Source: Scytolyngbya sp. HA4215-MV1 | GTDB lineage: Bacteria > Cyanobacteriota > Cyanobacteriia > Leptolyngbyales > Leptolyngbyaceae | Assembly (NCBI GenBank): GCA_019359045.1 | Contig: JAHHIA010000003.1 | Span: forward strand, 496,001-560,000 | Length of the DNA: 64,000 bases | Direction of reading: 5' to 3' | Shown: positions 26,801 to 33,977 of the stretch, one piece after another | Numbering within the stretch: position 1 is the stretch's first letter | Layout of the letters: each line of letters starts with the position of its first letter | Program-made: the position numbers and the translations under genes | The notes under the pieces: model-generated | What the model saw: the letters and a program-made list of their open reading frames with translations, nothing else | Told to the model about the DNA's origin: nothing | The model's database searches: none

Positions 26801-28027
26801 CTTGAGTGCTTCGGGCAAGAGCTTTTTGGCACTTTCGACATCGATCCAATACATACACAGCGCCCGCAATAGAACATCAATGCTGTGATCATCGGGCGTA
26901 TAGAAGAAGGCATTGCTGACCCAGCTTTTTTGAGACAAATCTCCTTGCTGCATGCGAATGACTCGTTCCAATAAGTCGTAGAGTGGGCTGAGCCAGTGCT
27001 TTGCCCGCTGTGCGATTTGGCAATATTCCATGGCTTCTTGGAGCCGATCGCCCGTGCCTTGTTTAATCAGCGCCAGCACAAAAAATATCCCGGTCAATGT
27101 TTGGAAGTAAATTTTGCGTTTATTGGTGCCTTTTTTGAGGGCTTGCAATGCGGTGGTGTATTGGGCGATCGCCGCTGCATCGTCTCCTTGCAGAAAAGAC
27201 AAACATCCCTGCACATTGCCTGCATTGATGCGGTAGGCTTCAGGCAATTGATCCAGATTTTGTTGGGCGTCTGCCAATTTGCCCCGCAGAATCAGTTGTT
27301 CAATCAAAAAGAGGCGTAACAAATCGGAGACTTGCCGCTGCCCTGCACAATCTTGTTGAAGCAGTTCAAATGCTTCGGGTGCAGGCTCTAGCCCGAGCAT
27401 TGACTCATTCAAAATGCTGATGATGATGCTCTCATATAATTCGTTAGGCAGCGATCGCATCCAATCGGTATCGAAAGGATTGTTGCAGACTAAGTCATAG
27501 ATTTCGGCAACGGTGATGGGATCAGCGAGGTAACTGTACTTGTAATAATCCTCAAGTTGCTGATTGATGAACTTAACATTTTTGCGGTAAAGACCAATTC
27601 GCACTTCTCGAATCAACAGACCGTCCCGACTAAAAGAACGGGGACCGTCTCGCCAGCGTCGTGGGATTGGGATTTTGTCTTCGACGACTTTGGCAAGGGC
27701 TTCAAATCGCCCAATCCGCACTGCATCACGAGTGACGATTTCTATCAACAGAGGGTAGCATTGCACTCCCTGTCCACTGTTCTGAATTACAACGCCTTTT
27801 TCTAATAGGCGATCGAGGTAGGGCTTAATCGTGTGAGGCTTAAACGGTTGACCCTTGCTATCTTTTGCACCTGCTTGATCCAAGCAAATGATCAGCATGT
27901 TGCGATTAATCGGCTCATAAATCACCGATAACAATTGCACGATCAATTGTTCGAGGGGAGATAACTCGTGATATACATCAAGCAGTTGATCGCGAGGATT
28001 GGTAGAATCAAGGGGAACAGCGCTCAT
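23816..28027 (-). CDS. Very large SNF2-family helicase/ATPase
   Basis: 1403 residues from the ATG at 28027; an in-frame TTG at 28057 is possible. The N-terminal 450 residues are helical, with TPR-like stretches ([33 protein letters not shown]). A middle part of strands has no motif I know. The motor follows: [13 protein letters not shown] (Walker A, about residue 972), [10 protein letters not shown] (about 1069) and [18 protein letters not shown], then the helicase C lobe with [22 protein letters not shown] and DRAHRIGQ. It should translocate on double-stranded DNA or remodel DNA-bound proteins; bacterial members link to transcription recycling (RapA) or defence. It stands alone with its own terminator. 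Confidence 0.9.
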   Translation of the reverse strand: [1403 protein letters not shown]

Positions 28028-28383
28028 GATTTCAGCAAGTGCACTAGATCCTCTCAAAATACTACATGTTAAATGAAAGTAGGATCACAATCGTCTCGTA
28101 AGACAAATGCCCGCATAGTATCCAAACAATTCTGTTCCTCTACTGCGTAAGGCTCGCAGCGGATCTAGTCTACGATTGCCTACAAAAGCCTCTCCACAGG
28201 TATTCGGTCAGTTGGCGCTCCCTTGCTGGGGTCAGGAAATCCCCCGTTGGCCCTACTCTATCGGCAGAATGAACCACAAGGGCTTCATTCTGCCGATCTA
28301 CCTGTTCACCTGCTATTGGGCATCGCTACTCTGCACCCCAAAAATTCCAGAATGGGGTTGCTTGGAGCAAGATGGGACGATGT
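28028..28383. other. Intergenic region of 356 bp with a strong inverted repeat
   Basis: This is the upstream region of the SNF2 helicase gene. It holds a perfect 13-base inverted repeat (TCGGCAGAATGAA at 28261-28273, complement at 28284-28296, 10-base loop) that can terminate the upstream operon's transcript or act as a regulatory site. Open frames here look accidental. Confidence 0.5.
28261..28296. terminator. Hairpin behind the metallophosphoesterase gene
   Basis: Perfect 13-base stem, 10-base loop, about 88 bases downstream of the metallophosphoesterase stop on the minus strand. No T-run follows, so it may be a regulatory hairpin instead. Confidence 0.4.
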
Positions 28384-29295
28384 TTATCCCAGAGAATGCT
28401 GCTCAATTTGGGTGTCCTGGTGCGTTATCACTTCAACAGTGCGGAATCCTAGCACCGCCAACAGATGATTTTCGGGAAGCTTGACAGGCGCAGGTTGCTC
28501 ACCCTTGCCAGGGGCAGGCAGAGGATAAGCAGTTGCCGCCGCCGTGTGGAAGCGAATATTGCCTTCGCTGTGCTGAATGACCTGATGAATGTGACCGCTC
28601 AATACCGTGACCGAAGCAAAGCGGGAGAGCAGGGAGAGCAATTTGGCGGAATCGGCGGTTGCCCAGCCCCATTTGGGATAAAGGTCATACAGGGGAATAT
28701 GACTGAAGACAACGATCGGCGTATCCGATTTTTGGGCTAACAAATCTTGGGTCAGCAGATCCAGTTGCGCCTGACCCAATTCGCCCTTACCGGTTGCCCC
28801 AAAGTCCAACACATTGGTCACAGCAACAAAGTGAATGCCGCCCTGATCCCACACCTGCAAGCCTTCTTTCACTGCTTTGCGAGGAAATGCCTCTTCGTAA
28901 GCTTTACCTCGATCGCCAATGGTGTCATGTTCCCCCGGTAGAGTAAACAAGGGCACTTTCAGTTGGGAAAGGAGTTGTTTTGCCTGATCAAATTCTGCGG
29001 GTTTAGACAGATGGGAAATATCTCCCGTATGCACCACAAAGGCAGGTTGAACGGGTAAAGCATTGATCGCCGCGATCGTTTTCTGCAGCGTATCAGTTAC
29101 ATGTTCATTGGCAGGTTTATGGAACCCAATGTGTGTATCACTGATTTGCACGAAGGAAAATGGCGTGGTGGTGGATGCCGGCTGAGTCTTTGAGGTGCCG
29201 ACCTGGCAGGCAGTGAGCAAGCCATTTTCACCGACTGCCCAGACAATGCCCAGTCCAGTCCAACTAACATGTTCGATAAATTTGCGACGTTTCAT
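28384..29295 (-). CDS. Exported metallophosphoesterase
   Basis: 303 residues. The N-terminus MKRRKFIEHVSWTG resembles a Tat signal, and LLTAC (Cys30) could be a lipobox. The calcineurin-like metal site is complete: SDTHIGFH (Asp53, His55), HTGDISHL, GEHDTIGD, FSHIPLYDLY and LSGHIHQV. It should hydrolyse phosphate esters with a two-metal centre outside the cytoplasm; the substrate is unknown. It is last in an operon of small membrane protein, cupredoxin and this gene; a 31-base gap separates it from the cupredoxin. Confidence 0.92.
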   Translation of the reverse strand: MKRRKFIEHVSWTGLGIVWAVGENGLLTACQVGTSKTQPASTTTPFSFVQISDTHIGFHKPANEHVTDTLQKTIAAINALPVQPAFVVHTGDISHLSKPAEFDQAKQLLSQLKVPLFTLPGEHDTIGDRGKAYEEAFPRKAVKEGLQVWDQGGIHFVAVTNVLDFGATGKGELGQAQLDLLTQDLLAQKSDTPIVVFSHIPLYDLYPKWGWATADSAKLLSLLSRFASVTVLSGHIHQVIQHSEGNIRFHTAAATAYPLPAPGKGEQPAPVKLPENHLLAVLGFRTVEVITHQDTQIEQHSLG

Positions 29296-29326
29296 TTGGA
29301 TATTCCTCTGGTGATTGGCGATCGAG

Positions 29327-29782
29327 TCAGGTTTTCTTGGGGGTGACTGTCAGCGTCCCTTTCATGAAAGGGTGAATGGAGCAAATGTAGGGAAAGGAGC
29401 CTGGTTGGTTGGCAGTGTAGTTCCAGGTTTGGTTGGTGTCCAATGCTTTAGAGTTGAAAGTCCCCTCGGTTGACGTAGCTGTGTGGGGTTCCTCATCAAC
29501 ATTGATAAATTGGACAGTTTCACCTGCGACGATCGTGACATTGGCAGGCTCAAATTTGAAATTATGAATTTTGACTGTCGCAGTCGTCGGTGGGTGACTT
29601 GGTTGAGGGGGGGCTTGCGTGGGACTGGTAGTAGCTTGGGGTTGGGTGGTCGCTGGATGATCCATCACCGCTGGGGGAGGGGGCGTTGCCTGGGGCGTAG
29701 GGCTACAGGATGATAACGACAACAGGATGACCAGAAGGGTACTAGCGATCGCGATGAAAAAGTAAGTCAGAAATTTCATCAT
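29327..29782 (-). CDS. Cupredoxin lipoprotein
   Basis: 151 residues. A hydrophobic N-terminus ends in a lipobox (LSSC, Cys26), then a Pro/Thr/Gln-rich linker to about residue 68, then a plastocyanin/amicyanin-like domain (VKIHNFKFEPANVTIVAGETVQFINVDEEPHTA). The type 1 copper ligands are all visible: His100, Cys134, His137 and Met140 (PYICSIHPFMKG). It should carry single electrons or bind copper at the outer face of a membrane. Its start overlaps the end of the membrane-protein gene by four bases, a sign of translational coupling. Confidence 0.92.
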   Translation of the reverse strand: MMKFLTYFFIAIASTLLVILLSLSSCSPTPQATPPPPAVMDHPATTQPQATTSPTQAPPQPSHPPTTATVKIHNFKFEPANVTIVAGETVQFINVDEEPHTATSTEGTFNSKALDTNQTWNYTANQPGSFPYICSIHPFMKGTLTVTPKKT

Positions 29783-30066
29783 CGTTCTCCGGTTCGCTTG
29801 GCTCGATGACGTTTGGTAACCAGTCCAGTCATGCTCAGTCCCGTGGCAACTAAGCCCATCAGTCCCAGCCCATTGACAACGGGCAGAATGGCATCAAGTT
29901 TGAAGAGCTGAAACGTATGCACAGTGATTAGAAAAGCCACCCATGCCTCTTGATGCAACCATTGATCCGCGATCGCAAGGCTGATGCCCGTCAAAGCCGT
30001 GAAGCATAATGGTAAACCAAACATCAGGGCAATGAACCGATGATATTGACGTAATGTATTTTTCAT
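29779..30066 (-). CDS. Small PepSY-like membrane protein
   Basis: 95 residues with three hydrophobic helices (about 10-30, 40-60, 65-85) and a basic tail (TKRHRAKRTGER). The start (LRQYHRFIALMFGLPLCFTALTGISLAIADQW) resembles the first helix of PepSY-associated membrane proteins, which often have a histidine that may bind haem. It is first in the operon with the cupredoxin and metallophosphoesterase, so it may pass electrons to or from the cupredoxin; that is inference. Confidence 0.75.
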   Translation of the reverse strand: MKNTLRQYHRFIALMFGLPLCFTALTGISLAIADQWLHQEAWVAFLITVHTFQLFKLDAILPVVNGLGLMGLVATGLSMTGLVTKRHRAKRTGER

Positions 30067-30103
30067 GGACGCAACGTATTTTTTCGGTTTGGTTTTCTGG
30101 TCT

Positions 30104-30157
30104 TGACGTTGCTGAGTTCAAGGCTTTTCCTAAGACATGATTGAGTCAGCAACGTCA
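30104..30157. repeat. Perfect inverted repeat with GTTGCT/AGCAAC ends
   Basis: TGACGTTGCTGA (30104-30115) pairs perfectly with TCAGCAACGTCA (30146-30157) across 30 bases. It lies 38 bases upstream of the membrane-protein start and just behind the small secreted protein gene. It could be an operator, a terminator or a small mobile repeat; see the similar ends at 32480-32556 and 51762-51849. Confidence 0.45.
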
Positions 30158-30164
30158 GATTTTC

Positions 30165-30530
30165 TTAGTCTTTTCCTAATCCTTGCAGTTGATCTGTCAA
30201 CGCCGATCGATAGTCTCGATCCGTTAGCGTTTGCTCAGAAATCTGATTAGCTTTGACTGCTGCTTGCATTAAGTCTTGAGCTGTGACCGTGCCAGCTGCG
30301 ATTGCATCGACTAATGCACTATTGCTAGGAATGCCTTGTTCGATCAGATACCCTTGATATGCCAGATAGGTCAGATTAAAAGGGCTGACTGGGTTTACCG
30401 AAGCTTGAGTCGGCACGTATGGATTGAAGCTGGTTGGGGCTGCTTCGGTGGTTTGGGCAGATACCGCAGTCGGCAAAATGGCAACAGAAAGCAGCAAGGT
30501 TGCACATAAGTTAGCAAGCGATCGGTTCAT
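30165..30530 (-). CDS. Small secreted protein, unknown
   Basis: 121 residues with a clear signal peptide (LCATLLLSVAILPTAVSAQ). The mature part is polar, with NPYVPTQASVNPVSPFNLTYLAYQGYLIEQGI and an alanine-rich helical part DAIAAGTVTAQDLMQAAVKAN, where each block is uninterrupted. I recognise no family. GAGAGGT precedes the ATG. It is first of the minus-strand set facing the ECF sigma gene and may be its target. Confidence 0.75.
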   Translation of the reverse strand: MNRSLANLCATLLLSVAILPTAVSAQTTEAAPTSFNPYVPTQASVNPVSPFNLTYLAYQGYLIEQGIPSNSALVDAIAAGTVTAQDLMQAAVKANQISEQTLTDRDYRSALTDQLQGLGKD

Positions 30531-31056
30531 AAAATTACCTCTCAGATCAGGGGTTGTGTGACGACGTTTTCGCCACCTTCAACCGTAAGATGCAGCCCAA
30601 ACGTACGGTACATCGGTCTCACTCAGACGGCTGAAAGTGCAGAATATTGCGTGATTAAAAAAACTGTAGGAGCGAATAAGTCAGCAGTTAGTTTGATGGC
30701 AGGAATTAATTGCAACTCATTCCTGTACAGGAGACTGATTGGCTGACTGATGGGTCTCTATCCTTAAAGCGACCCGGTCTCTGTTTTGGATTTAAACTTC
30801 TCGATCTCACTCCAAAGGCGCGTTTTCCAATTGGGTCTGCCTGAAGCTCATCCAATTCACTTCATCAATCGTTTTAGAGATAAGGGGGAAGTTTGACCTA
30901 TGCTCAAAACATGCTATGAAACGAAGATTACTATCACCACTGCAAGATGCATCGAGTATTCTTACAGGGAAAGTAATCCGGGTCTACTCATCTGAATCGA
31001 TGCAGCGGAGTTCCCCTGAGGATCTTCGATTCGGTTTTGCTCATTGCCATTCCTCC
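30531..31056. other. Divergent control region, 526 bp
   Basis: It separates the secreted-protein gene (minus) from the ECF sigma gene (plus) and should hold promoters for both. I see no clear ECF-type GGAAC/CGTC pair. A frame in phase with the sigma gene is open from 30916, but that part does not look like a sigma domain. Confidence 0.4.
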
Positions 31057-31623
31057 ATGCCAACCTTCACTGATGCTGAGCTACTCAATCATCTGAAGAC
31101 AAAACAGCCAGAAGCGTTAGGGTGGCTCTACGATCGCTATGGCAGTGTGGTGTATGGTGTGGCACTTAAAGTGTTGCAAAGCCAACCAGAAGCCGAAGAC
31201 CTGACCCAGGAAATTTTTCTGTCCCTCTGGCAACGTCCGGTTGATCCGGTCAAACATGGACATTTACTGCGCTACCTGATTGCTATGACCCGATCGCGGG
31301 CAATTGATAAACTCCGATCACGGAGTCGCAACCTGAATTTGGTGCAACGCTGGGGGCAGACTTTCACAGCGGAACCGCCTGCGCCCACTCCAGTTGAGCA
31401 AGCGGTTGCCAGTGAGCGATCGCAGCAAGTGCGGCAGGCATTAACCCAGCTTTCCGAGCGACAACGGCAGGTAATCGAACTGGCTTACGATGCTGGACTC
31501 AGCCAGTCAGAAATTGCTCAACAACTCCAGGAACCCCTGGGAACGGTGAAAAGCTGGACTCGTCAGGGACTTCTGAAGCTAAAGCAACTGTTAAAAGACT
31601 CCATTGACGAAGGTTATGACTGA
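31057..31623 (+). CDS. ECF-type RNA polymerase sigma factor
   Basis: 188 residues from the ATG at 31057. An earlier ATG at 30916 would add 47 residues unlike any sigma region, so the later start is preferred. Region 2 reads LGWLYDRYGSVVYGVALKVLQ, then AEDLTQEIFLSLW and the DNA-binding LIAMTRSRAIDKLRSRSR. Region 4 reads LTQLSERQRQVIELAYDAGLSQSEIAQQLQEPLGTVKSWTRQGLLKLKQLL, with blocks matching sigma-70 region 4. The start of the anti-sigma gene overlaps its end by eight bases. Confidence 0.93.
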   Translation: MPTFTDAELLNHLKTKQPEALGWLYDRYGSVVYGVALKVLQSQPEAEDLTQEIFLSLWQRPVDPVKHGHLLRYLIAMTRSRAIDKLRSRSRNLNLVQRWGQTFTAEPPAPTPVEQAVASERSQQVRQALTQLSERQRQVIELAYDAGLSQSEIAQQLQEPLGTVKSWTRQGLLKLKQLLKDSIDEGYD

Positions 31624-32350
31624 ACCTCTCTCTCCTCAAGCGATCGCAACCCTAGCAGCAGGTTATGTGGTGGGCGACCTCGACCCTACCGAAGTCTCAG
31701 TCTTTGAGCAACTGCTGCAAGACAACCCAACCTTAGGGGCAGAAGTGGCTCAGTTGCAAGCGACTTTAGACCGTGTGACGCATGACTTGAATAGTGTTGA
31801 ACCTCCTGCCCATCTGAGATCGGCGATTCTGGCAACTGCAACGACCCCACGACTGACTGCTCAGTTCCAGCGACCTCGATTTCCCTGGCGTACGGTTATG
31901 GGCAGTATAGCAGCGCTGTTGATTCTTTATTTAGGCGTTGAGAATTACCACTTGCGCCAAGACCGTCAGATTGCTCAAGACATCCATACCCTCCTGCAAC
32001 AGCCCCAGACGCAGCTTTTCTCCCTCAAAGCGGTCAAAACAGCCGATACAGCGACGGGTAGCTTTGTGGTGAATCTGGGTCAGCGACAGGGAGTTCTGGT
32101 GGTGCAAAATCTCACAGCACCAGCTACCAACCAAGTCTATCGCCTGTGGGCGATCGCCGATGGCGAAAAGATTCCCTGTGGGACGCTGATCCCCAATTCC
32201 CAAGGAGAGGTGTTGGAGAAATTCTGGATGCCTGCCGACTTCTACGATACGGGCATCTCCGGATTATTCGTTACTTTGGAAGCATCCGCATCCAGCCGTT
32301 ATCCAACCGGTCCCGTGGTGCTCCAGAGTTCCTCGTCTACTCAGATCTAG
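31616..32350 (+). CDS. RskA-type membrane anti-sigma factor
   Basis: 244 residues from the ATG at 31616, which lies inside the last codons of the sigma gene. The N-terminal part (about 1-70: AGYVVGDLDPTEVSVFEQLLQDNP) is the sigma-binding region typical of this class and lacks the zinc motif. One membrane helix follows (about 95-112: VMGSIAALLILYLGVEN). The outer domain (about 150-244) reads QVYRLWAIADGEKIPCGTLIPN and ends in the RskA C-terminal fold. It should hold the sigma factor at the membrane until an outside signal, often via proteolysis, frees it. Confidence 0.9.
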   Translation: MTEPLSPQAIATLAAGYVVGDLDPTEVSVFEQLLQDNPTLGAEVAQLQATLDRVTHDLNSVEPPAHLRSAILATATTPRLTAQFQRPRFPWRTVMGSIAALLILYLGVENYHLRQDRQIAQDIHTLLQQPQTQLFSLKAVKTADTATGSFVVNLGQRQGVLVVQNLTAPATNQVYRLWAIADGEKIPCGTLIPNSQGEVLEKFWMPADFYDTGISGLFVTLEASASSRYPTGPVVLQSSSSTQI

Positions 32351-32378
32351 CCTCAGATCTCGGTGATGTTCTAGCCAG

Positions 32379-32431
32379 GTTGTAGTATTTTTGAAAGCCT
32401 TGCTCAACAAGGCTTTCAAAAATACTACAAC
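32379..32431 (+). terminator. 24-base perfect hairpin after the sigma/anti-sigma operon
   Basis: Arms 32379-32402 and 32408-32431 match perfectly around the loop CTCAA, with stem ends GTTGTAGTATTTTTG and its complement. It begins 28 bases behind the anti-sigma stop. No long T-run follows, but the stem itself carries T and A runs. Confidence 0.65.
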
Positions 32432-32479
32432 TCCTTTGAAACACTCCCCGATCGTTTCCCCGTGTTCTCGACCGCAGGA

Positions 32480-32556
32480 CGTTGCTCAGCAGCGGGATGA
32501 AAATGATGCTGAATGATTTGAAACTTCGTTACAAATCATCCTGCTTTTCAGCAACG
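32480..32556. repeat. Small nested inverted repeat with CGTTGCT/AGCAACG ends
   Basis: Outer arms CGTTGCT (32480-32486) and AGCAACG (32550-32556) enclose ATGATTTG/CAAATCAT (32513-32520, 32532-32539). It lies between convergent operons, behind the amidohydrolase gene. The ends resemble those at 30104-30157 and 51762-51849. Confidence 0.4.
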
Positions 32557-32573
32557 CCGACCGCAGAGATGCC

Positions 32574-33977
32574 CTAAGTCGGCAGCCCCATAACCGATCG
32601 GTAATGCGTTTCAAACTGCTGTACGTTCAGAGAGTGACGGTTGAATACCCATTCGCTGCGATCGAACAGGGTTTGCCGAAGTTGATCGACATCCACATTG
32701 ACGACCTGCCCATCAGCGACTACCCGATCGCCCTTTACCCAGGCACTATGCACCGCTTCTGTCGGTCGTCCCAAAACTAACAAACCGATTGGGTCGGTTC
32801 TGGGGAGCAGAGCGAGACGGGTCAGATCATACAGCACCAAATCGGCCTGTTTGCCAACCGTCAGAGAACCCAACTCCTCTGCCAACCCCAGTCCCTTTGC
32901 TCCCCCCAACGAAGCCATGGCGATCGCTTGTCGCGGGGAAATCCAGTTGCGATAATCGAAATCCGTCACATCATGCAAAAGGGAACCGATTTTAATCGCT
33001 TCTAGCAAATCTTGAGAATCATTACTGGCGGCTCCATCACAGCCGAAAGTGACATTCACACCTGCTTGCAGGTACTTAAAAACAGGCGCAATACCACTCC
33101 CTAAGCGCAGATTACTGAGAGGATTGTGCACCACGGTGGATTGGGTTGCTGCCAGGAGGGTGATATCGGCATCATCTAACCAAACACAATGTGCTAGGGA
33201 AGTCTTGGCACCCAGAAAACCCAAATGCTGCATTTGTTGCACCGCACTGCAGCCATATTTTTCATGAGCCAGCATTTTTTGGGCTTTGGTTTCCAGCAAA
33301 TGGGTATGGCGGCAAAGCTGATGTTGTTGGCTCAATGCCACTAACCCTTTGAACAACTCATCCGAACAGAGTTGAAATCCGGTCGGTGCCACCATAATCT
33401 CGATGCCCTCATCAGGACGATGGAATTTTTCAACCACTTCCTGCATCAGCATCAGCAAACTCTCGGCGGTTTCGGCACAGGGCAGGGGTTCCCAAGCTTT
33501 GCCGCCAGCAGGCAAGCTAGCAGTCAAAGATTCGTCCTGAATTAGGGGACCGACAAACGCGCGGATACCGACTTCTCGGTACCCTCGGACGGCAGCGGCG
33601 ATCGTCTCAATCTCTTGTCCCGGAATCAGTGTCAGGTGATCCACTACCGTAGTGCCCCCCGATAGCAAGGTTTCGATCGCCGTACCGAGTGCACTCAAAT
33701 AAACCTGTTCAGGATCAGGAGGAGCAAAATCGTAGAGTTCGGCAATCCACAGTTCCAGCGGCGCTGGTGGGATAATCCCCCGCTGCCACATCTCGGAAGA
33801 ATGGGTATGGGCATTAACAAAACCGGGCAATAGCAACTTGTGGCGACCATCCACGACAGTGCCGATCACTTCTAGATTCGGAGCGATCGCGGCGATTCGT
33901 CCCGCCTGAATTTGCACATCGATGGTTTGATATCCTGGCTCAGCCGGAATGAGAACATTCTGAATCGTGAAGTTCAA
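32574..33977 (-). CDS. Amidohydrolase of the chlorohydrolase/deaminase group
   Basis: 467 residues of the metal-dependent amidohydrolase superfamily. The metal-binding NAHTHS (His57, His59) is followed by MWQRG, CRHTHLLET, AHCVWLDD, NPLSNLRLGSG and GCDGAASND, in the order seen in TrzN/AtzA-type chlorohydrolases and SAH/methylthioadenosine deaminases. The C-terminal end GKQADLVLYDL is typical. It probably deaminates a purine-like or nucleoside-like compound in the cytoplasm; the exact substrate is open. It is alone on its strand. Confidence 0.9.
   Translation of the reverse strand: MNFTIQNVLIPAEPGYQTIDVQIQAGRIAAIAPNLEVIGTVVDGRHKLLLPGFVNAHTHSSEMWQRGIIPPAPLELWIAELYDFAPPDPEQVYLSALGTAIETLLSGGTTVVDHLTLIPGQEIETIAAAVRGYREVGIRAFVGPLIQDESLTASLPAGGKAWEPLPCAETAESLLMLMQEVVEKFHRPDEGIEIMVAPTGFQLCSDELFKGLVALSQQHQLCRHTHLLETKAQKMLAHEKYGCSAVQQMQHLGFLGAKTSLAHCVWLDDADITLLAATQSTVVHNPLSNLRLGSGIAPVFKYLQAGVNVTFGCDGAASNDSQDLLEAIKIGSLLHDVTDFDYRNWISPRQAIAMASLGGAKGLGLAEELGSLTVGKQADLVLYDLTRLALLPRTDPIGLLVLGRPTEAVHSAWVKGDRVVADGQVVNVDVDQLRQTLFDRSEWVFNRHSLNVQQFETHYRSVMGLPT

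Follow-up and report, generated by a model that had tools for sequence, protein, structure and literature searches.

The locus described here raises the question of whether an extracytoplasmic function (ECF) sigma factor and its anti-sigma factor govern the envelope genes that lie beside them. It occupies part of a 64,000-nucleotide stretch of contig JAHHIA010000003.1 (positions 496,001 to 560,000) from the cyanobacterium Scytolyngbya sp. HA4215-MV1. This stretch is referred to below as the window, and positions are those of the window unless another locus is named. A sequence-only reading had considered shared control of the two gene sets plausible. The present analysis supports it through genetic linkage (65 of 80 related loci) and a bidirectional motif (14 of 14 divergent cyanobacterial loci), and it is likely that the locus is an autoregulated ECF signaling module controlling a set of envelope effectors.

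Organization of the Locus

The following features are referred to in the text.

28384–29295, minus strand: exported metallophosphoesterase (MPE); Pfam Metallophos above the cut-off
29327–29782, minus strand: cupredoxin lipoprotein (CUP); Pfam Cupredoxin_1 and Copper-bind above the cut-off
29779–30066, minus strand: small PepSY_TM-like membrane protein (MEM); Pfam matches of orthologs
30165–30530, minus strand: secreted protein with no family assigned (SEC); no Pfam or NCBIfam match
30766–30791, minus strand: predicted ECF promoter toward the effector operon; ATCCAA-N14-CGCTTT
30850–30875, plus strand: predicted ECF promoter toward the sigma and anti-sigma genes; ATCCAA-N14-CGTTTT
30916–31623, plus strand: ECF sigma factor of the NF009172/PRK12519 subfamily; Sigma70_r2/r4 and NF009172 above the cut-off
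31604–32350, plus strand: anti-sigma factor with an RskA_C outer domain; RskA_C and NF052375 above the cut-off

The ORF (open reading frame) list and the family searches showed that all six genes named by the earlier reading are real ORFs, and the 4-base overlap of the MEM and CUP genes was confirmed at 29779–29782. The sigma pair and the minus-strand set had been described as facing each other. Their orientation is instead divergent, back to back, with the intergenic region 30531–30915 common to both. The anti-sigma gene directly follows and overlaps the ECF ORF, and its product scores 74.9 bits against RskA_C, for which the cut-off is 29.4 bits. The start of the ECF gene is ambiguous, with in-frame ATG codons at 30916, 31000, and 31057.

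The Sigma Pair and the Effector Genes Recur Together

If the sigma pair and the cupredoxin operon were unrelated, neighboring genomes might be expected to keep them apart, as the sequence-only reading had pointed out. This was not what was found. Anti-sigma orthologs with at least 70% identity occur in 3 of the 42 genomes of the order, always inside this block, and the remaining anti-sigma matches in the order reach at most 43% identity. CUP likewise has matches at E ≤ 1e-10 in 3 of the 42 genomes; a class-wide search at E ≤ 1e-12 gave matches in 6 of 388 genomes, with at least 74% identity in the same three only. A phylum search at E ≤ 1e-60 gave a match in the window's genome only, among 386, which fits a patchy distribution.

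In two other genera (genomes G015 and G039), the genes for the sigma factor, the anti-sigma factor, MEM, CUP, and MPE form one block with this divergent arrangement; one of the two has all six genes and the other has five. SEC is present in G015 at 59% identity, and its position in G039 is taken by a weakly similar secreted ORF of 117 residues (E 1e-4; locus L111). The SNF2 helicase, amidohydrolase, and UvrD-like helicase genes of the flanks are all without a match in the stretches taken from these genomes. Because the same divergent order recurs at different flanks, and recurs again in other cyanobacteria, the grouping is more than chance.

The comparison of gene order was then extended by scanning a single genome from each species. 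A five-sequence MPE alignment yielded 570 relatives, of which the best 80 were kept, so that the fractions given below describe this MPE subfamily. Gene calls across the loci are mechanical ORFs, many of them on short contigs of metagenome-assembled genomes, and the gene content of L111, L089, and L090 suggests that they duplicate L063, L075, and L077. In 65 of the 80 loci, spread over six named phyla, MPE has an ECF gene no more than 3 kb away. Counted per kb of distance from MPE, the ECF matches number 49, 18, 2, 0, 2, and 0, where the outer flanks, some of them clipped by contig ends, serve as the control. By phylum, the linked fractions are 12 of 14 in Cyanobacteriota, 17 of 19 in Vulcanimicrobiota/Eremiobacterota, 22 of 28 in Acidobacteriota, 7 of 7 in Verrucomicrobiota, 5 of 6 in Pseudomonadota, 1 of 1 in Armatimonadota, 0 of 3 in Bacteroidota, and 1 of 2 among unassigned loci. 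An anti-sigma gene is found near 59 of the 65 ECF-linked loci; it is of the RskA type in 12 cyanobacterial loci and of a zinc-finger type in 48 loci overall (one member was checked and is zf-HC2).

Three gene orders are seen. The sigma pair is divergent from SEC-MEM-CUP-MPE in cyanobacteria, CUP-MPE-ECF all run in one direction in Eremiobacterota, and ECF is divergent from MPE-CUP in Acidobacteria and others. SEC relatives were found by clustering in 10 of the 80 loci, in cyanobacterial versions only.

Conserved Promoter-Like Motifs on Both Arms

Alignment of 13 divergent cyanobacterial intergenic regions, including those of the window and G015, reveals two conserved blocks. Each consists of ATCCAA, 14 bases, and CGT or CGC, and in all 13 regions one block is directed toward the sigma gene and the other toward the effectors. 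A further locus, L089, in which a Rieske protein replaces the cupredoxin, also contains both ATCCAA-N14-CG[T/C] copies, which brings the regions with the motif on both strands to 14 of 14. These regions are related rather than independent, although large parts of the sequence separating the blocks cannot be aligned. None of 300 dinucleotide shuffles of the set gave the motif on both strands. The long form, ATCCAA-N14-CGYTTT, has two matches in the window, both at this locus, against 0.04 expected. We infer that this sigma factor would read ATCCAA-N14-CG promoters.

In three loci with unlinked cyanobacterial RskA-type ECF genes (L037, L052, and L054), ATCCAA-N13/14-CGT apparently stands before the sigma gene, and a promoter of the ATCCAA type may be common to this ECF subfamily. 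The motif is absent from the Gloeobacter-type loci L076 and L077.

A different motif is present in the acidobacterial-type loci. Among the 46 loci L112–L157, the 25 with a divergent ECF gene within 900 bases were tested, and GGAATA-N16/17-GT[C/T] was found to precede the effectors in 19 and the sigma gene in 18; it is present on both arms in 14 and on at least one arm in 23. The shuffle means are 0.09 for the effector arm and 0.08 for the sigma arm. This motif corresponds to the ECF26 consensus in the literature, −35 GGAATA and −10 GT (PMC6180224). The predicted sigma promoter of the window does not match the ECF26 consensus. Another conserved acidobacterial block, TTGTA...GGC, was dropped as a promoter candidate because its alignment position and the sequences themselves locate it within the sigma coding frame.

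The effector-side promoter would give rise to a long untranslated leader, predicted at 30531–30760 in the window and long too in other divergent cyanobacterial loci. No Rfam match was obtained in window positions 27500–33000, which include this leader. A generic scan for ordinary sigma-70 promoters and terminators gave fewer sites than shuffles and was set aside. Directly 3' of the anti-sigma gene there is a perfect inverted repeat with 23-base arms (32380–32430), unique in the genome in a search allowing up to two mismatches in an arm. It is probably a terminator, although the generic scan did not list it.

An Apparently Exchangeable Electron Carrier

CUP has the lipobox LSSC, as read from its sequence, and the type 1 copper motif CxxHxxM. 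The nearest solved structures are the cupredoxin part of copper nitrite reductase and then amicyanins, and the score against the amicyanin model TIGR02657 (NCBIfam) is 47.8 bits, below the cut-off of 110.2 bits. An amicyanin-like working of CUP would rest on the CxxHxxM site.

The identity of the carrier bears directly on what the module may respond to. If it were a copper response, the ECF pair would sense periplasmic copper, the cupredoxin would buffer or oxidize it, and MPE would have a side task. The type 1 copper motif is indeed kept in 63 of the 65 cupredoxin ORFs neighboring MPE, and in 64 of the 80 loci a cupredoxin lies no more than 1.5 kb from MPE. The other carriers found at this distance are not copper proteins: one locus has a Rieske protein, eight have a small CxxCH protein, and the remaining seven have none. 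In the Rieske variant (L075/L089, 3418–4834), the substitution is directly before MPE and the same promoter pair is kept. The eight CxxCH proteins are candidate c-type cytochromes, and the two that were checked with Pfam (L116 and L133) gave matches to cytochrome c and Haem_bd. Neighbor clustering also showed no recurrent copper ATPase or multicopper oxidase, and a copper response is therefore unlikely.

One of the 64 cupredoxin loci has a cytochrome candidate as well. Among the seven loci without a carrier by the rule, a CxxCH protein follows immediately downstream in L122, L130, L132, and L137, and L143, L145, and L156 have none there. The downstream proteins of L122 (8934–9620) and L130 (8905–9648), both from Verrucomicrobiota, are identified by Pfam as fusions of a DUF2231 membrane domain with cytochrome c beside MPE, and a DUF2231 relative is close to MPE in 19 loci. 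The carrier thus appears to be exchangeable between copper, iron-sulfur (Rieske), and heme (candidate c-type cytochromes). Because the phosphoesterase pairs with an exchangeable electron carrier, the task of the module would be redox-linked rather than strictly copper-linked. The earlier description of the response as copper- or redox-linked is upheld in its redox part by the Rieske and apparent heme substitutes; a strictly copper-linked response is too narrow.

The Metallophosphoesterase and Its Neighbors

The N terminus of MPE contains an RR signal (MKRRKF), and a twin-arginine pair is found within the first 12 residues in 63 of 81 MPEs. Residues Asp-53, His-55, Asp-92, His-123, His-199, His-235, and His-237 are kept in all 81 sequences. 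So is Glu-122, which takes the place of the Asn in the GNHD motif of GpdQ and Rv0805 (GEHD in the window MPE); the patterns used in the relative scan left out this site. In GpdQ and Rv0805 the replaced Asn is a metal-binding residue, and PGNHD is visible in the alignment. The class III phosphodiesterase motifs DxH, GD, GNHD, H, and GHxH are all kept in the 81 sequences save for this Asn-to-Glu change, by which MPE departs from the class definition.

By both sequence and fold, the nearest solved structures are GpdQ and Rv0805, followed by purple acid phosphatases. A Foldseek comparison with GpdQ and Rv0805 (Protein Data Bank codes 3d03/2dxl and 2hy1) gave an E value of 8.5e-17 and a TM score of 0.76 on the target, using a predicted model with a mean predicted local distance difference test (pLDDT) score of 72 in which the first 43 residues are weak. 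The NCBIfam scores are below the cut-offs, at 55.2 of 225 bits for CpdA and 49.1 of 400 bits for SpdA. MPE is thus like GpdQ and Rv0805 in fold and in six of seven metal-site positions, but it differs in having Glu for Asn, in being exported, and in its association with an electron carrier and an ECF pair. By kinship with these two enzymes, its substrate would be a phosphodiester. In G015, MPE is split by a frameshift (L062, 11013–11940), with the sigma, anti-sigma, SEC, MEM, and CUP frames open; the L121 MPE contains a single internal stop. Alignment set A3 contains 42 of the 81 MPEs.

For MEM, the only match of the window protein is NfeD_membrane, below the cut-off, and PepSY_TM (PF03929) did not appear at E 0.01. 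The MEM ortholog of L089, however, passes PepSY_TM with 31.4 bits (cut-off, 28.8 bits), and those of L085 and L087 match below the cut-off, which makes the earlier label "PepSY-like" a fair one. His-9 and His-50 are invariant in 14 of 14 MEM sequences. The predicted model is all-helical, with a mean pLDDT of 71 and a predicted template modeling score of 0.45. Distant MEM relatives in other cyanobacterial contexts (L008 and L021) adjoin Rieske-like genes, Pfam-checked for L008, and these contexts suggest a general role of MEM with small redox proteins.

Several Regulators Linked to the Same Effectors

A maximum-likelihood tree was calculated from 90 of 93 ECF rows and rooted at the midpoint. 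Although its bootstrap is not fully settled, the 14 linked cyanobacterial ECFs form one clade (100/98) within a 33-row clade (100/94) that also includes 19 unlinked cyanobacterial RskA-type ECFs, and the 32 linked acidobacterial-type ECFs form a separate clade (100/100). The window ECF passes the cut-off of NCBIfam PRK12519. Three acidobacterial-type ECFs are nearest to NF009185/PRK12533 and one from Eremiobacterota is nearest to PRK12519, all below the cut-off. In the Gloeobacter-type loci, CUP-MPE is preceded not by an ECF gene but by genes for a response regulator and a histidine kinase (L076) or for a histidine kinase close to the contig start (L077). The same effectors are therefore linked to two or more ECF lineages and also, in loci of the Gloeobacter type, to a two-component system. 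An exported phosphoesterase with a small electron carrier has thus become associated with envelope signaling repeatedly. Beside the CUP-MPE locus of L077 (1–1308; G119) there are also ORFs that by eye resemble TnpB and TnpA of the IS200/IS605 type, a hint of mobility.

The best experimental analogue of the module is RpoE4 (ECF26) of Sinorhizobium meliloti, which is described in the available portions of PMC3511301 and PMC6180224 as driving genes for sulfite dehydrogenase, cytochrome c, and pseudoazurin. In this ECF26 system (RpoE1/RpoE4 with sorT-sorU-azu2), an ECF/anti-sigma pair drives a periplasmic cupredoxin, as is proposed for the present locus, together with cytochrome c, and the GGAATA/GT consensus is shared with the acidobacterial-type loci. 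A sulfur, sulfite, or other electron-donor response of this kind, in which an oxidoreductase encoded elsewhere feeds the carrier and MPE is accessory, might therefore be considered. However, the S. meliloti effector is the sulfite dehydrogenase, with no phosphoesterase mentioned in those portions, and the cyanobacterial ECF differs in both lineage and motif. Neighbor clustering showed no recurrent oxidoreductase, and we regard this explanation as quite improbable.

Two other systems share single features with the locus. In the ECF29 locus rpoE8-SMb20593-amcY of S. meliloti, the ECF gene likewise lies beside an amicyanin gene, and the ECF29 motif stands before both rpoE8 and SMb20593; the sections of PMC6180224 at hand recognize no anti-sigma factor and name no phosphoesterase there, and they report that overexpression of rpoE8 gave no targets. 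SigK/RskA of Mycobacterium tuberculosis also pairs an ECF factor with an RskA_C anti-sigma factor, but the regulon is MPT70/MPT83, and the excerpt of PMC7509140 mentions no cupredoxin-phosphoesterase block. Searches of an open-license library returned no description of an ECF or anti-sigma factor with a cupredoxin, plastocyanin, or phosphoesterase, although its coverage excludes the 2021 ECF reclassification and a Nostoc punctiforme ECF paper, where one may exist.

Proposed Mechanism and Its Significance

Regulated proteolysis is the usual release route for such sigma/anti-sigma pairs. In the resting state of the proposed module, the membrane RskA-type anti-sigma factor would hold the ECF factor until it is freed by a signal at the envelope, probably a disturbance of redox state, metals, or electron transport. 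The freed sigma factor would then fire the two ATCCAA-N14-CG promoters in 30531–30915, raising both sigma/anti-sigma and SEC-MEM-CUP-MPE expression. MPE would act as an exported di-metal phosphoesterase and CUP as a periplasmic one-electron carrier, with MEM probably connecting the carrier to the membrane electron pool. Both the signal of the module and the role of the carrier are ones that we infer. The single Cys of the anti-sigma outer domain is invariant in 14 of 14 linked anti-sigma factors; it is not proposed as a sensor, as 10 of 28 unlinked paralogs also have a Cys in the stretch inspected.

Several observations weigh against an autoregulated module. Most other RskA-type pairs of the order are without linkage to these effectors, and in 15 of the 80 loci, some of which sit at contig ends, the 3 kb around MPE show no ECF gene. 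The short motif, ATCCAA-N14-CGY, has three matches in the window where 1.15 would be expected, and some loci lack the TTT that follows CG. The effector motif is ~230 bases upstream of SEC, and it is similarly distant in other loci. In the Eremiobacterota upstream regions (20 of 21 loci), the ECF26-type motif was found in none and the ATCCAA type in one. Finally, the looser form ATCCAA-N14-CGYNTT has eight matches in the window's genome, and the six that lie outside this locus compare with three in the control. As the short motif is not rare, the strength of the promoter evidence lies in its conservation and placing.

A wider regulon is not claimed, given where the six other loose matches lie. 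One of them (L160; G000:C12:7659) ends just before the start of a 499-residue ORF, which is a possible extra target. Another (L163) lies ~830 bases before a sigma-70-like ORF, and those of L161, L162, L164, and L165 are apparently inside longer ORFs.

Chance adjacency of two unrelated units, which would accord with the RskA-type pairs located elsewhere in the order and with the Gloeobacter-type effectors that have no ECF gene in the stretch examined, was rejected as extremely improbable on synteny and promoter conservation, since the linkage recurs in several gene orders and the motifs are conserved on both arms.

The autoregulated module may have a more specific function, which we put forward as a rather doubtful proposal. 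The cupredoxin, Rieske protein, or cytochrome, fed via MEM, would set the oxidation state of the Glu-for-Asn di-metal site of MPE. Periplasmic cleavage would then follow the state of electron transport, and the ECF pair or the two-component system would sense the same state.

For many ECF groups, neither a signal nor a target is known. In the present case the effector set is defined and recurs, promoters are predicted for both arms, and the regulon, the signal, and the enzyme are thus open to direct testing. It is unusual for a phosphoesterase to be paired repeatedly with an exchangeable one-electron carrier, and this suggests that electron transport and periplasmic phosphoester chemistry are connected in a way not yet described. 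If the phosphoesterase is indeed redox-gated, this would be a new coupling of respiration or photosynthesis to envelope phosphoester chemistry in several phyla.

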